34,999 nt of DNA from a bacterium (GTDB taxonomy: Bacteria > Spirochaetota > Spirochaetia > Treponematales > Rectinemataceae). The notes below the pieces were generated by a model. The model had not been told where the DNA came from and ran no database searches. It worked only from the letters and a program-made list of their open reading frames with translations. Made by a program: the position numbers and the translations under genes. Within the stretch, counting starts at the first letter, position 1; the number at the start of each line of letters is the position of its first letter. Where the stretch lies: assembly GCA_021779995.1 (NCBI GenBank), contig JAJXZP010000193.1, positions 1 to 34,999 on the forward strand, given 5' to 3'. This document shows positions 46 through 13,251 of the stretch, piece by piece.

Positions 46-2376
46 ATGAAGTTCACCGACGGCTACTGGGGCCTCAGGGAAGGCGTCCGTATCTCATCGC
101 CCGCGCAGGCGCTTGATGTCGAGCGGCGCGACGGCAGTCTCCTCGTCTTCGCGCCCTGCACGGCCATCCGCCACCGCGGCGACACCTTGAACGCTCCCCA
201 GCTCTCCTACCGCTTCAGCTCGCCCCTGCCCGGGGTGATCCGCGTCGAGATCGTCCACTGGAAGGGCGCGAAGGCGAAGGGGCCCGATTTCGAGGTCGCC
301 TCGCTTCCCGGCTTCGAGCCCGAGATCGAGATCGCAGCCGAGGAGGCGAGTCTCGTCTCGGGCGACACGCGCGTCACGGTGAGGCGGGGCGGCGAGTGGT
401 CCGTGGACTTCTTCAGCGCCGGCGACAGGATTACGGGTTCGGGACCCGGCCAGGCGGGGCACATCCTCGACCGCGACGGAAGCTTCATGCGCGAGCAGCT
501 GGACCTCGGCGTCGGCGAGTGCGTCTACGGGCTAGGCGAGCGCTTCACGCCCTTCGTCAAGAACGGCCAGGTCGTGGACATGTGGAACGAGGACGGAGGC
601 ACGAGTTCCGAGCAGGCCTACAAGAACGTCCCCTTCTACCTCTCCGACCGAGGCTACGGCGTGTTCGTGGCCCATCCGGAGCGCGTCTCCTTCGAAGTCG
701 GCTCCGAGGTCGTCTCGCGCGTGCAGTTCTCCGTGCCCGGCGAGCGGCTCGAGTACTACCTCATCGGCGGTTCCGGTCCCAAGGAGGTTTTGAGACGTTA
801 TGCGGCCCTGACGGGCAGGCCCGCCCTGCCGCCGCCCTGGTCCTTCGGGCTCTGGCTCACCACCTCCTTCACCACGAGCTACGACGAGGCCACGGTCAAT
901 TCCTTCATCGACGGCATGCGCGAGCGGGACATCCCGCTGCACGTCTTCCACTTCGACTGCTTCTGGATGCGCGAGTTCCAGTGGTGCGACTTCGCGTGGG
1001 ACAGGTGCCAGTTCCCCGACCCCGAGGCGATGCTGCGCCGCCTCAAGGCCAAGGGCCTCAGGATCTGCCTCTGGATCAACCCCTACATCGCCCAGAAATC
1101 CCCGCTCTTCGACGAGGGAATGGAGGCGGGCTATCTCCTGAGGCGCCCCGACGGCGGCGTCTGGCAGTGGGACCGCTGGCAGGCGGGCATGGGGCTCGTG
1201 GACTTCACCAACCCCGGGGCCGTGGCCTGGTTCAAGGAAAAACTGCGCCGACTCCTGCGCATGGGCGTGGATAGCTTCAAGACCGACTTCGGCGAGCGCA
1301 TCCCCGTCGACGTGGTCTACCACGACGGCTCGGAGCCCGAGCGCATGCACAACTACTACACCTACCTCTACAACAAGGCGGTCTTCGAGCTTCTGGAGGA
1401 GGAGCTGGGGCGCAACCGGGCCCTCCTTTTCGCGCGCTCGGCCACCGCGGGCAGCCAGAAGTTCCCGGTGCACTGGGGCGGGGACTGCTCGGCGACCTAC
1501 GAATCCATGGCCGAGACCCTGCGAGGCGGACTCTCGCTCGGCCTCTCGGGCTTCGGCTTCTGGAGCCACGACATCTCCGGCTTCGAGAAGACCGCGACCC
1601 CCGATCTCTACAAGCGCTGGGTGGCCTTCGGCCTTCTGTCCTCGCACTCGCGGCTCCACGGCAACGAGTCCTACCGCGTGCCCTGGCTCTTCGACGAGGA
1701 GGCGGTCGAGGTCCTGCGCTTCTTCGCGGCGCTCAAGTGCCGCCTCATGCCGTACATCTTCTCCCAGGCGGTCGAGGCCTCCCGGGAGGGCCTGCCCGTG
1801 ATGCGCGCGATGGCGCTCGAGTTCCCCGGCGACCCGGCCTGCTCCTACCTCGACCGGCAGTACCTGCTGGGCTCCTCGCTCCTCGTCGCGCCGATTTTCG
1901 CGGCCGACGGCTATGTGTCCTACTACCTCCCGGCCGGCCGCTGGACCAAGCTCCTCTCCAACGATCTGGTCGAGGGCGGGCGCTGGATCCGCGAGCGCCA
2001 CGACTACGTGAGTCTTCCCCTCATGGCCCGGCCGGGCTCCCTCATCCCCATGGGCGCCGACGGGACCAGGCCCGACTACGACTACGCGGCCGGCGTCGCC
2101 TTCCATCTCTTCGAGCTGGCCGAGGGAGAGACGGCCTCCGCGGCAGTGCACGGCGAGGAGGGCGAGCCGCGCCTCGAGTTGGGCGTCGCGCGCAGGGGCG
2201 GGCGGATCGAGGTCGAGGCCCGAGGGGCTGTCGCCGACTGGAGTCTCGTGCTGCGGAACCTGCGCTCGGTCGCCTCCGTCGCCGGCGGCAGGGCTGCGGC
2301 CGATCCCCTCGGACTCAGAATCCACGTCGCGGGGACGGGCGAGGCTGGTATCGTGCGTCTTGACATCCTGCTCTAG
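46..2376 (+). CDS. yicI: GH31 alpha-xylosidase, YicI-like
   Basis: A 776-residue glycoside hydrolase family 31 enzyme, predicted to release alpha-linked xylose from the non-reducing end of oligosaccharides such as xyloglucan fragments. No signal peptide is visible, so it should be cytoplasmic and act on imported sugars. The family layout is present: N-terminal beta-sandwich (about 1-245), (beta/alpha)8 barrel (about 255-590) and C-terminal beta domains. The nucleophile is Asp414 in FKTDFGERIP and the acid/base is Asp480 in HWGGDCSATYESM, almost the same numbering as E. coli YicI (416 and 482), and the length also matches. The start follows an AAGGGAG ribosome-binding site at 31-37. The FGERIP context favours xylosidase over alpha-glucosidase; exact substrate preference is inferred. 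No sugar transporter is seen downstream; one could lie upstream of the window. Confidence 0.93.
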   Translation: MKFTDGYWGLREGVRISSPAQALDVERRDGSLLVFAPCTAIRHRGDTLNAPQLSYRFSSPLPGVIRVEIVHWKGAKAKGPDFEVASLPGFEPEIEIAAEEASLVSGDTRVTVRRGGEWSVDFFSAGDRITGSGPGQAGHILDRDGSFMREQLDLGVGECVYGLGERFTPFVKNGQVVDMWNEDGGTSSEQAYKNVPFYLSDRGYGVFVAHPERVSFEVGSEVVSRVQFSVPGERLEYYLIGGSGPKEVLRRYAALTGRPALPPPWSFGLWLTTSFTTSYDEATVNSFIDGMRERDIPLHVFHFDCFWMREFQWCDFAWDRCQFPDPEAMLRRLKAKGLRICLWINPYIAQKSPLFDEGMEAGYLLRRPDGGVWQWDRWQAGMGLVDFTNPGAVAWFKEKLRRLLRMGVDSFKTDFGERIPVDVVYHDGSEPERMHNYYTYLYNKAVFELLEEELGRNRALLFARSATAGSQKFPVHWGGDCSATYESMAETLRGGLSLGLSGFGFWSHDISGFEKTATPDLYKRWVAFGLLSSHSRLHGNESYRVPWLFDEEAVEVLRFFAALKCRLMPYIFSQAVEASREGLPVMRAMALEFPGDPACSYLDRQYLLGSSLLVAPIFAADGYVSYYLPAGRWTKLLSNDLVEGGRWIRERHDYVSLPLMARPGSLIPMGADGTRPDYDYAAGVAFHLFELAEGETASAAVHGEEGEPRLELGVARRGGRIEVEARGAVADWSLVLRNLRSVASVAGGRAAADPLGLRIHVAGTGEAGIVRLDILL

Positions 2377-3977: not shown

Positions 3978-6512
3978 ATGGCTGAAAAGACGAAGAGACT
4001 GCTCCTGGTCGAGGACGAAGCCCTCATCGCCCTGGCCGAGAAGGCGAGCCTGGAACGGCAGGGGTACTCGGTCGTCGTCGCCGCTTCGGGCATTTCGGCG
4101 GTGGCGATCACCTATGCGGAATCGGACATCGACCTCGTCCTCATGGACATCAATCTGGGACCCGGCATGGACGGCACGGCGGCGGCGGAGGCCATTCTCA
4201 AGCGGCGGGAGATGCCGGTGGTATTCCTGTCGAGCCATATCGAACCCGAGATCGTCGAGAAGACCGAGAGGATCACGTCCTACGGCTACGTGGTCAAGAA
4301 CTCCGGGATCACGGTGCTCGACGCCTCCATCAAGATGGCCTTCAAGCTCTTCGAGGCCAACCGCAAGCTCAAGGCGACGATGGGCCGCCTCGAGGCCACG
4401 CTCGACGCCATGCCCGACCTCCTCTTCGAGGTGGGCTTGGACGGGCGATACTACGACGTCCACGCTCCCCAGACCGAGCTGCTCTTCAAGCCGCCCCCGG
4501 ACATGATCGGGAAAAGCGTCTACGAAATCCTGCCGCCGGAACCGGCCGAGATCATCATGGGAGCCGTCAGGGAGGCCCACGAGAAGGGGCGTTCCTTCGG
4601 CAGGCAGTACCAATTGACCGTGCCCGCGGGAAAGCGGTGGTTCGAGATTTCCGTTTCGCGCATCGTCAGCGCCTCCGACGAGCCCCGCTTCATTTTCCTG
4701 GTGCGGAACATCACCGAGCGCAAGGGCGTGGAGGAAGCGCTCCGCCGGGAAGGGTATCTGCTGCAGGTGCTCATGAACTCGAGCCTCGTCCACATCTACT
4801 TCAAGGACCTGGAAAGCCGCTTCATCCTGGCGACCAGATCCCACGACGCCTTCTTCGGCCTGAGCGATCCCGCCCAGATGATCGGCAAGACCGACTTCGA
4901 CTTTTTCACCTCCGAGCACGCCCAGGCGGCCTACGACGATGAGCAGACGATAATCAGGACGGGCCGGCCGCTCCGGAAGGAAGAGCGCGAAACCTGGGCC
5001 GGGCGCCCGGACACCTGGGTCCTCACCGAGAAGATGCCCCTCTACGACACCGACGGCAACATCATCGGCACCTTCGGCATCTCGAGCGACATCACCGAGC
5101 GCAAGCACGCCGAGGAGGCGCTGAGGGAGAGCGAGGCCAGGTATCGCAGCCTCTTCCAGAACGCCCCCGTCGGCATCTTCTATTCGACGGTCGACGGCAT
5201 GGAGCTCAGCGTCAACGACGAGTACGCCCGCATCATGGGCTACGACTCGCCGGAAGAGCTCGTGCGCATCGTCAACCGGGCCGGCGCGGCCAAGGCGATC
5301 TTCGACCATCCGGAGGAGCGCGCCTACCTGATCGCCACCGCCCTGGAAAGCCCCGGCCGCTGGATCAGGACCGAGCAGCGATACAAGAGAAAGGACGGGA
5401 CGCATATCCTCACGCGCCTGGTTTTCCGGGCCCTTTCCGAGAACCCCGGCATGCTCGAAGGCTTCGTCGAGGACCTCAGCGAGCGCAGGAAGGCGGAGGC
5501 GTCCCGGCACAGCAGCGAGGAGCGGCTGCGCAACGTCATCGCCGCCGCCAACATCGGTACCTGGGAGTGGAATGTCCAGACCGACGCGGTCAAGATCGAC
5601 GAGCGCTCGCTGGCCCTGCTGGGCTACGAGCCCGGCGAGCTCCCGCATCTGGACATGAAGGCGTGGCTTGGATTGAAGCACCCCGACGACGCCGTCGCGG
5701 TGAACGATCTGCTCAAAGATCACCTGCAGGGCAAGACGGACTTCTATTCCTTCGAATCCCGCATGCGGCACAAGAGCGGCGGCTGGGTCTGGATCCTCGG
5801 CCGAGGCAAGCTCGTCGCCTGGGACAGGCACGACGCCCCCTTGCGCATGTACGGCATCTACATGGACATCACCGAGCGGAGGAAGGCCGAAGAGCAGGTG
5901 CGGAGCCTCCTGCGGGAGAAGGACACCATCCTGAGGGAAGTGCATCACCGCATCAAGAACAACATGGGCGTCATCCACAGCCTGCTCGGCCTCCAGGCCG
6001 CTTCCGTGCGGGAGCCGAGCGCGGCCGCCGCCCTCGACGACGCCGCCAACCGCGTCCAGAGCATGACGCTGCTCTACGACAAGCTCTACCAATCCGCGAC
6101 CTTCGACGCGGTCTCGATCCGGGACTATCTCTCCTCCCTCGTCGACGAGATAGTCGGAACCTTTCCCGGCGGCGCTTCGGTCCGGGTCGAGAAGAATATC
6201 GAGGACGTCCAGCTCGACGTGAAACGGCTCCAGCCGCTGGGCATCATCGTGAACGAGCTGCTGACCAACATCATGAAGCATGCCTTCGCGGGAAGGGATG
6301 CCGGATCGATCGAGGTGTCCGTCTCCGTTGCGGCCGGGAAAGTCTCCCTGGCCGTCCGAGACGACGGGGTGGGGATGCCGGATGCCGTGGACCTCGGCCG
6401 TTCGTCCGGATTCGGCCTTACGCTCGTGCAGACCTTGACCGAGCAGATCGGCGGCAGGCTCAGGATCGAGCGGGGTCGCGGAACGGCGGTGATCCTCGAA
6501 TTCGAGAAATGA
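3978..6512 (+). CDS. receiver-PAS(x4)-HisKA_2 histidine kinase
   Basis: An 844-residue signalling protein with an unusual order: a receiver domain first (about 8-120, phospho-acceptor Asp57 in LVLMDINLG), then four PAS/PAC modules (about 130-250, 258-378, 385-505, 515-635; each ends in a DITER-like PAC motif) and a HisKA_2-type kinase core. The phosphoacceptor region reads [10 protein letters not shown] (His656/His657), followed by the N-box [12 protein letters not shown] and G-boxes DDGVGMP and SGFGLTLVQ. There are no membrane helices, so it is a soluble cytoplasmic sensor. The input receiver suggests that it is controlled by another kinase, with the PAS domains sensing ligand, redox state or light. 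AGGAG at 3966-3970 supports the ATG at 3978. No partner regulator is adjacent. Confidence 0.9.
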
Positions 6513-12169: not shown

Positions 12170-12412
12170 ATGGATAGCGTAATGGAAATCGGGGCCTTCG
12201 AGGCCAAGACCCGTTTCTCCGAGCTTCTCGAAACGGTCCGCGGGGGCCGGGAAATTATCGTCACGCGAAGGGGGGAGCCCATGGCCCGCATTGTGCCTAT
12301 CGGCGATAAAAAGGAAGAGATAGCCCTCCTTCTCAGGGAGTTCGAGGACATACGTGCGGGAGCTCGGCCCGGTCCTTCCATTCGCGCCCTCATCGAGGAA
12401 GGTCGTCGATGA
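12170..12412 (+). CDS. type II antitoxin, Phd/YefM family
   Basis: An 80-residue Phd/YefM-family antitoxin. The N-terminal DNA-binding and dimerisation fold is seen in GAFEAKTRFSELLETVRGG and in REIIVTRRGEPMARIVPI; the C-terminal tail (REFEDIRAGARPGPSIRALI) is the flexible part that should wrap and block the toxin. Its last four bases (ATGA) overlap the toxin start, so translation is coupled. A second in-frame ATG at 12182 is equally plausible and would remove four residues. It should repress its own operon through the palindrome at 12148-12164. Confidence 0.88.
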   Translation: MDSVMEIGAFEAKTRFSELLETVRGGREIIVTRRGEPMARIVPIGDKKEEIALLLREFEDIRAGARPGPSIRALIEEGRR

Positions 12413-12822
12413 GCTTCGTCCTCGACGCGAGCGTCGCGGCGAGCCTCTTTCTCCCCGACGAGGAGAGTGAGACGGCAAGGTCGATACTGGGCGGGGCCGG
12501 AGGCAGCATCCTCGTCCCGACCCTGTTCTGGTACGAGATGGCCAGCATTCTGTCGGCCAGCGTTCGGAAGGGCAGGCTGGGCGAAGGCCCGGCCTTCAGG
12601 GCTCTCGAGATGCTGCGCAGGCTCGGCTTGAAGGTCGATGCCCGCCCCATCGAAGAACTCCTGCCTGCTATCTTCATGCTGTCGCGGGAGCACGAGCTTT
12701 CGTCGTACGACTCGGCGTATCTCGAACTGGCCGCGCGCGAGGGCGCGACTCTCTGCAGCCACGATGGGGAATTGCGGGCGGCCGCGAAAAAGATAGGCCT
12801 TTCGCTGCTTCCCGCCGCGTGA
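12409..12822 (+). CDS. vapC: PIN-domain ribonuclease toxin, VapC family
   Basis: A 137-residue PIN-domain toxin, expected to be an Mg/Mn-dependent ribonuclease held inactive by the upstream antitoxin. The acidic active site is complete: Asp6 in FVLDAS, Glu43 in WYEMAS, Asp101 in SYDSAYLELA and Asp119 in SHDGEL. The length is normal. The start overlaps the antitoxin stop by four bases. Pairing a Phd-type antitoxin with a VapC toxin is common. The module sits next to duplicated tRNA 3'-end sequence (12.8-13.2 kb), which fits acquisition as part of a mobile or laterally transferred segment, though no integrase is present. Confidence 0.9.
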   Translation: MSFVLDASVAASLFLPDEESETARSILGGAGGSILVPTLFWYEMASILSASVRKGRLGEGPAFRALEMLRRLGLKVDARPIEELLPAIFMLSREHELSSYDSAYLELAAREGATLCSHDGELRAAAKKIGLSLLPAA

Positions 12823-12831
12823 TTCGGCGCA

Positions 12832-13119
12832 GCTCCGGGCCGGGGAAAGCGCTCTCGCGCGCTCGCCCGCGTCGCGCGCTTCCGTGCGGGCTCGATTCCC
12901 GGTCTCGCTTATAAAAAAAGCGCGCTCCCCAGCGGGGATCGCGCCTTTTTAGCCGAGACCGGGAATCGCCCTCCGCGATTCGGCATCCTGCCTCATCGCT
13001 CCGGGCCGGGGAAAGCGCTCTCGCCCGCGTCGCGCGCTCGCCGCTCTCGCGCGCTTCCGTGCGGGCTCGACCGATCGCCATCCTCAGATGATCGGATGGC
13101 GATCGGGGCGCTTTCCCAT
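12832..13119. repeat. imperfect tandem duplication downstream of vapC
   Basis: The block that starts GCTCCGGGCCGGGGAAAGCG at 12832 recurs at 12998, and the associated CGTGCGGGCTCGA is found at about 12883 and 13058. Each copy leads into a palindrome carrying tRNA-Thr 3'-end sequence. The second copy contains an extra perfect 13-base stem (13071-13083 with 13094-13106), itself enclosed by GGGAAAGCGC (13008) and GCGCTTTCCC (13108). No gene is seen in this 356-base gap between vapC and the tRNA. Confidence 0.75.
12893..12968. repeat. palindrome containing a truncated tRNA-Thr 3' end and terminator copy
   Basis: A nearly perfect 76-base palindrome. The outer arms are CGATTCCCGGTCTCG and its complement (12893-12907 with 12954-12968); the core is an A7-GCGCG...CGCGC-T5 hairpin. 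The right part (12951-12968) is identical to the last bases of the intact tRNA-Thr gene at 13179-13196, and the core copies that gene's terminator. Homology to the tRNA stops within the T-arm. Confidence 0.8.
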
Positions 13120-13196
13120 CGATATCCCGGTCTCGCTTATTAAAAAAGCGCGCTCCCCAGCGGGGATCGCGCTTTTTTAGCCGAGACCGGGAATCG
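13120..13196. repeat. palindrome overlapping the 3' end of tRNA-Thr
   Basis: The intact tRNA gene's own 3' end (13182-13196) has an inverted copy on the far side of its terminator (13120-13135, CGATATCCCGGTCTCG, one inserted base). In an unprocessed transcript the 3' half of the T-arm and acceptor stem could pair with this downstream copy, with the terminator hairpin in the middle. Confidence 0.75.
13142..13178 (-). terminator. intrinsic terminator of tRNA-Thr, bidirectional
   Basis: An A6-GCGCG(A/C)TCCCC stem with its complement and a T6 tract on either strand, starting directly after the tRNA discriminator base. It should stop the tRNA transcript and also any plus-strand read-through from vapC. 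Confidence 0.88.
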
Positions 13197-13251
13197 AACC
13201 CGGTACCTGCGCATTACGAGTGCGCCGCTCTGCCAAGTGAGCTATCTCGGC
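13179..13251 (-). tRNA. tRNA-Thr (CGT anticodon)
   Basis: A complete cloverleaf folds on the minus strand: acceptor GCCGAGA/TCTCGGC, D-arm GCTC/GAGC, anticodon arm GCGCA-CTCGTAA-TGCGC, five-base variable loop and T-arm CCGGG-TTCGATT-CCCGG. The anticodon CGT reads ACG (threonine). The body is 72 bases plus a U discriminator at 13179; CCA is not encoded. It has its own consensus promoter and terminator. Confidence 0.96.

Follow-up and report, generated by a model that had tools for sequence, protein, structure and literature searches.

Structured elements framed by copies of the preceding tRNA or tmRNA 3' end form a family in Spirochaetia

Regulatory RNAs can be derived from the trailers or spacers of tRNA transcripts, as with 3'ETS-leuZ, a sponge from a tRNA external transcribed spacer that pairs with sRNAs; unlike the element described here, to our knowledge it has neither a conserved fold nor a copied tRNA end. 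The design of a CsrA-binding RNA flanked by two terminators in a stable-RNA unit has a precedent in RrA, RrB and RrF of E. coli, small structured RNAs between two rRNA terminators that arise by read-through, bind CsrA in vitro and cause modest phenotypes (PMC8144298). Read-through origin and CsrA binding are likewise predicted for the spirochaete element, which differs in following tRNA rather than rRNA genes; RrA/RrB/RrF are moreover one sequence in three operons of Enterobacteriales, and their abstract reports no arms copied from a host gene (PMC8144298). The RNAs CsrB, CsrC and RsmZ (PMC7652899) share with the element GGA in hairpin loops and CAGGA(U/A/C)G repeats, and several A(N)GGA hairpin loops per RNA are found in the element as well; however, these RNAs are independent genes with many sites each, whereas the spirochaete element has two putative CsrA sites per unit and its units are scattered over tRNA genes. 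Genomic islands in tRNA and tmRNA genes, as described for Islander (PMC4383910), resemble it in the duplicated host-gene 3' end at both boundaries, but they encode an integrase and further genes, while the element, about 0.2 kb long and non-coding, possesses an additional inverted T-arm copy and, with units of roughly 110-250 nt, is too small to hold an integrase gene. REP and BIME sequences (PMC3733652) are also short palindromic intergenic repeats, yet they are mainly found behind coding regions and carry GTAG/CGTC tags, whereas the element stands at tRNA and tmRNA ends and the letters of its palindromes depend on the tRNA.

The window, that is, the whole stretch of DNA analysed, comprises 34,999 nt of contig JAJXZP010000193.1 (GCA_021779995.1), in which the locus at 12,832-13,251 was examined; all features of this locus lie on the minus strand. 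The tRNA-Thr (CGT) gene at 13179-13251, identified by ARAGORN and by Rfam RF00005 (65.4 bits), is the source of the copied 3' end. It is followed by a first copy of the tRNA trailer, an inverted repeat flagged as an intrinsic-terminator-like hairpin (13140-13178), by the 5' arm of the element, which copies the T-arm side of the tRNA 3' end in inverted orientation (13118-13137), and by a full structured core (12969-13117). Behind the core lies the 3' arm (12951-12968), which repeats the final 18 nt of tRNA-Thr exactly and in direct orientation, and then a second copy of trailer and terminator (12913-12950; 0.96 identity over 45 nt), the 5' arm of a second unit (12892-12910), a truncated second core (12832-12891) and the convergent vapBC genes. 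The core of about 150 nt sits between two palindromes, which constitute a 72-nt direct repeat (12897-12968 and 13125-13196; 97% identical), and at this identity the two units of the window arose through local duplication. Two further direct repeats, of 31 nt (12832-12862 and 12998-13028) and 41 nt (12855-12895 and 13030-13070), reveal the second core, which retains P4 and the 3' strand of P2 and is without the 5' strand of P2, P3 and most of P5.

Along the tRNA strand, the full core consists of the 5' strand of helix P2 (13105-13117), helix P3 (13071-13106), which is a perfect 13-base hairpin of the long-P3 subtype (arms 13071-13083 and 13094-13106), the P4 region (13023-13068), containing CACGGAAG (13054-13061), a CANGGANG motif that was also counted across the family, the 3' strand of P2 (13008-13022), and helix P5 (12968-13006), whose apical loop CAGGAUG (12984-12990) is a CsrB-type repeat. 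The folding stability of the 191 nt between the arms far exceeds chance (z = -6.9), none of 200 dinucleotide shuffles being equally stable. A covariance model of the family, R1, which was built partly from loci chosen by a pattern requiring CAGGANG, matches the core at 12966-13088 (55.3 bits, E 1.6e-11). The earlier note on this DNA had described an exact 18-base repeat of the tRNA end (13179-13196 at 12951-12968), copies of the terminator, mirrored ends, extra direct repeats and the 13-base hairpin, and every one of these is present; its account of the palindromes was also right, but it overlooked the conserved structured core framed by the repeats, as well as the truncated second core at 12832-12891.

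A DNA search of the window's own genome revealed a related stretch on contig C45, downstream of tRNA-Asn, whose framing arms match tRNA-Asn, not tRNA-Thr. The Asn copy folds into the same shape as the Thr copy (z of -7.3 and -6.9, respectively, against shuffles). A hammerhead-like reading of P5 (GAUGA...GAA) was rejected, because the core letters differ in the Asn copy. With model R1, the same genome contains seven matches of at least 33.9 bits (the next best reaches 18), following tRNA-Asn, Thr, Val, Glu, Leu(GAG), Ala(GGC) and Leu(TAA), so that the earlier supposition of a repeated element linked to tRNA 3' ends, for which a genome search for further copies adjoining tRNA ends had been proposed, is borne out by seven copies at seven tRNA genes. 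The accompanying idea of a small palindrome that uses the tRNA end holds in its link to tRNAs and fails in its choice of unit: the palindrome letters vary with the tRNA, and what recurs is the structured core, bordered on either side by copies from the preceding tRNA, not the 76-base palindrome.

Among 98 sampled relatives, 57 carry R1 matches at E <= 1e-5, and a DNA search of these genomes found copies after tRNA-Thr, Asn, Gly, Ala, Arg, Val, Leu and Glu and after tmRNA; the similarity search also returned many short G+C-rich matches, and its hits were kept only if checked near tRNAs or found by the covariance model. In a sample of 392 Spirochaetota genomes, 77 carry matches, up to 21 per genome, of which 65 (including the window's genome) belong to the same order, 11 to other orders of the class and one to another class; G041, a complete genome with 50 tRNA genes, contains 21 matches. 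A strict pattern for helix P5, applied to a named genome collection, found 35 stretches, 29 of them in spirochaete records; two matches under non-spirochaete titles (L051, L063) nevertheless follow tRNA genes. Four others (two in Streptomyces, one each in Promicromonospora and Planctomycetota) are without a neighbouring tRNA and are probably chance matches. Rfam at gathering score identified only tRNA and tmRNA in the window and 18 loci, and at permissive E-values only weak matches and no family; miRNA-type matches on the palindromes lay far below gathering scores and were dismissed as chance.

Altogether, the loci searched yielded 132 distinct copies, of which 109 stand immediately behind a same-strand tRNA or tmRNA gene, representing 32 gene kinds, with a median distance from gene to core of 59 nt (within 100 nt in 86/109), and no opposite-strand gene was found within 300 nt among the copies. 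This distribution, restricted to tRNA and tmRNA 3' ends rather than dispersed after protein genes, disagrees with the REP-like nature once considered for the repeats. The remaining 23 matches have no ARAGORN gene, and for nearly all of them the context is a displaced tRNA half or a contig end: L020, L026, L053 and L137 follow tRNA 3' halves that start near the anticodon loop, which are ends displaced by islands integrated upstream; L027 stands behind the end of a tmRNA; L054 and L059 are remnants; and the others lie at contig or locus ends. L052 and L060 (Streptomyces and Planctomycetota) are false matches. A scar of an element that brought in vapBC, as the earlier note had proposed, finds no support, given the presence of elements at dozens of tRNAs and their other neighbours at tRNA-Thr. 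The toxin-antitoxin genes at this tRNA vary between genomes, from Phd/YefM and PIN in the window (12170-12822) to an RHH and ParE pair (L013, 509-989) or a HipA-type gene (L024, 298-1197), which is the usual picture for an island hot spot.

In the layout of the element, the host gene is succeeded by a trailer (in many cases a terminator), the inverted T-arm copy, the core, a direct copy of roughly the last 18 nt of the gene (about tRNA positions 56-73) and often the trailer again. Most 3' copies start in the T-loop, 17-20 nt before the end of the gene, and reach the last base of the gene. The 3' copies score at least 12 against their own gene in 86/109 elements, compared with 7 of 3379 comparisons against genes of another kind. 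For the 3' arm the own gene is strictly the best match in 91/109, for the 5' arm in 89/109 and for at least one arm in 104/109, and the copies track variants of the host tRNA (L016, L021, L112). Across 65 elements, pairing of the inverted 5' arm with the tRNA is found in 75-98% at positions 57-65, weakens over the acceptor strand and reaches background by position 73, so that the 5' arm is a partner of the T-arm only, while the 3' arm reproduces the complete 3' end. None of 63 direct copies is followed by CCA, which indicates that they derive from the gene and not from mature tRNA, and which argues against retroelement priming by mature tRNA. In the 61 first elements, the trailer is duplicated (identity of at least 0.8) in 24; a terminator-like hairpin separates the gene from the element in 32 copies and lies after the element in 26, and none was flagged on either side in 28.

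According to RNAalifold, P2 encloses P3 and P4 and is followed by P5. In an alignment of 25 of 43 extracted cores (109-116 nt long, aligned ignoring structure; L005, L039 and L072 were left out), 21 of 26 pairs are altered on both sides at least once, and the covariation score is 0.518, against 0.152 for shuffled alignments and at most 0.144 for slid partners. On 74 model-fitted rows the score is 0.724 versus 0.176, although the fitting leans toward the structure. G-U outnumbers A-C at the paired columns (48 versus 23) and in P1 in fixed register (19 versus 9); pair counts based on the covariance model or on energy partly favour G-U over A-C by construction, and the excess, which is modest, would be expected if the tRNA-sense RNA were selected. 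We regard selection at the RNA level as likely. The structured elements of about 110-190 nt at tRNA and tmRNA 3' flanks in Spirochaetia form one family, whose anatomy is well shown, and we consider it nearly certain that the family exists and that the host gene writes its framing.

The selected CsrA site is RUACARGGAUGU and the CsrB repeat is CAGGA(U/A/C)G (PMC7652899), and the P5 motif of the element equals the latter. Across the cores, 191 of 347 predicted hairpin loops contain A(N)GGA, compared with 10% in shuffles, two hairpins retain an A(N)GGA loop despite variable stems, and 77/119 cores have at least two such loops. CAGGA(A/C/U)G is present in P5 of 86/119 cores and CA(N)GGANG in P4 of 106/119; both occur in 79/119, usually 44-46 nt apart. 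These counts cover 119 of the 132 matches, short or N-containing ones having been dropped, and 30 of the 119 cores came from loci chosen by the CAGGANG-requiring pattern, without which the motif is found in P5 of 60/89, in P4 of 77/89 and in both in 54/89.

The window's own genome encodes CsrA, as do 74 of the 77 element-bearing genomes of the phylum sample. In the window's family (f1), elements occur in 11/11 genomes with csrA and in 0/19 without it. In this family (genomes G004-G029), 19 of the 30 sampled genomes lack both csrA and the element. Outside f1, csrA is present in 39/46 genomes with and 21/22 genomes without the element (p = 0.26, leaning the opposite way), so the overall association comes from f1 and vanishes outside it. 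No csrA match was found in 7 of the 57 element-bearing relatives, several of which are incomplete, while one (G097) is 99% complete; conversely, 21 of the 71 genomes with csrA have no element. On the strength of the two hairpins with the loop motif of CsrA-binding RNAs, we propose tentatively that the element RNA may act as a CsrA decoy; as the csrA link is confined to f1 and some carriers have no csrA match, we give this function somewhat less than an even chance.

We infer an RNA function, CsrA binding and a spreading mechanism as follows. The element is most likely a structured RNA that would be transcribed by read-through from the tRNA unit; since a terminator-like hairpin precedes it in 32/61 copies, its expression would require such read-through. 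The copied T-arm would close the element (P1) and supply a tRNA-like 3' flank as a potential cleavage site for the enzymes of tRNA 3' processing. The conserved pair of A(N)GGA hairpin loops would bind a CsrA dimer, so that the RNA might serve as a decoy whose supply tracks tRNA transcription, and units would be gained and lost locally via recombination between the direct copies of tRNA end and trailer. The decoy idea alone leaves the copying of the host tRNA by the arms unexplained. Taken as a whole, this read-through RNA, a tRNA-coupled CsrA decoy multiplied locally by recombination, is the best explanation we can offer, at a probability that falls just short of one half.

The sequence divergence of the cores bears on how they spread. 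Adjacent units of one array are nearly identical, and at the same tRNA of related genomes cores can be 90-100% identical, as at tRNA-Met of G047, G067 and G070. Mean core identity, however, is 0.636 between different tRNAs of one genome, against 0.614 for unrelated pairs, 0.640 for the same tRNA in other genomes and 0.757 for the same genome and tRNA; one recent cross-tRNA pair was seen, at two neighbouring tRNA-Ser genes (0.96). This points to an old spread, vertical inheritance and local turnover, probably by recombination.

A mobile mini-element that, in the manner of tyrosine-integrase islands, inserts into the T-loop of tRNA and tmRNA genes would offer another route. The incoming unit would bring a replacement tRNA 3' end and terminator, the displaced end would remain as the 3' arm, and the conserved structure would be needed for recombination of folded DNA or for mobilisation. 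Regenerated and displaced tDNA ends are indeed the mark of islands (Islander, PMC4383910), and the extent of the 3' copies from T-loop to last base, the duplicated trailers, the tandem arrays and the patchy occurrence within one genus fit this proposal: at tRNA-Met of G070 and G067 the core lies between near-perfect direct copies of tRNA end and terminator, and other species of G070's genus have tRNA-Met without an element. A clean empty site was not found there, the element-free relatives G335, G304, G094, G082 and G079 having different flanks. On the other hand, the unit contains no recombinase gene, and no match to one pattern was found in viral contigs. Simple exchange onto another tRNA would generate a chimeric tRNA, yet the arms fit almost all kinds of tRNA, a range of occupied genes that the proposal does not explain either; recent hopping is rare, because cores within a genome are hardly more alike than unrelated ones. 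The 5' arm is conserved over the T-arm only, which leaves the inverted copy unaccounted for, and the G-U excess suggests RNA. We therefore regard such mobility as unlikely.

Several further sequences were observed. In G041, the tRNA-Met element array is followed, at a distance of about 110 nt, by a weak integrase-like match (C1:1462428-1462847). The same contig has an unrelated second unit, present in about four repeats after tRNA-Gly (L085, about 340-1040, minus strand; same region as L023) and composed of a trailer hairpin, an inverted T-arm, CAATCCATTCC...GCGGAGCRCAGCGACGCATGG and the tRNA-Gly 3' end; the framing by tRNA ends is common to both, and the P5 core is absent. Elsewhere, CAATNCCATTCC...GCGACGCATGG or similar is nested in element hairpins (L026, 1179-1604; L050, about 6072-6185; L030, 1-500), as if a short repeat inserts into elements. 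Matches to Y1_Tnp (RAYT-type) are present in 3/6 element-rich genomes.

The pairing of the inverted arm with positions 57-65 also raises the prospect of a switch in cis, in which this copy would pair with either the T-arm of the precursor or the downstream copy, and folding of the core, perhaps bound by CsrA, would choose between misfolded and mature tRNA or control 3' processing. Such a role agrees with the tracking of host tRNA variants and with the elements that follow tmRNA. The earlier note's idea that the mirror copy pairs with the precursor T-arm may hold, the mirror copy being conserved exactly over the T-arm, but it can equally pair with the downstream copy. Against the switch, the inverted arm lies behind a terminator-like hairpin in 32/61 copies, past the point where most transcripts would end; the 3' copy covers the acceptor strand and discriminator, unneeded for switching; and such control at nearly every tRNA kind would be surprising, so that we consider a cis switch improbable.

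The alternation of palindrome, core and palindrome recalls an integron-like array, in which the T-arm-ended palindromes would be attC-like sites and the cores cassettes, and an integron integrase does score above cut-off in 3/6 element-rich genomes tested. It does not in G000, G018 or the complete G041 with its 21 elements; moreover, the cores are non-coding and conserved, unlike cassettes, and the sites bear tRNA sequence, which makes this array highly improbable. A one-off local duplication without meaning would account for the window's two near-identical units, but seven copies at seven tRNAs, the 77/392 genomes of the phylum and strong covariation leave it a negligible chance.

No description of such tRNA-end-framed elements was found in the open-access literature. 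We know of no other element whose frame is written by the preceding gene and which occupies many tRNA kinds per genome. The family is previously undescribed, and its novelty resides in the frame copied from the host gene; on a cautious reading, it may be a variant of stable-RNA-borne sRNAs. That it represents a new class, a structured RNA module on tRNA and tmRNA transcripts that would adopt the 3' end of the preceding tRNA as closing stem and processing site, and that, spread over nearly every tRNA kind in one order, would link a pool of CsrA decoys drawn from the whole genome to how fast tRNAs are made, is a possibility which we regard as doubtful. Otherwise, the control of CsrA in spirochaetes is attributed to FliW. 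Were the RNA to bind CsrA, spirochaetes would gain antagonist RNAs and a global regulator coupled to tRNA output, whereas if the element moves instead, it would represent a route to colonise tRNA genes without breaking them; the model and coordinates make either reading directly testable in cultured treponemes.
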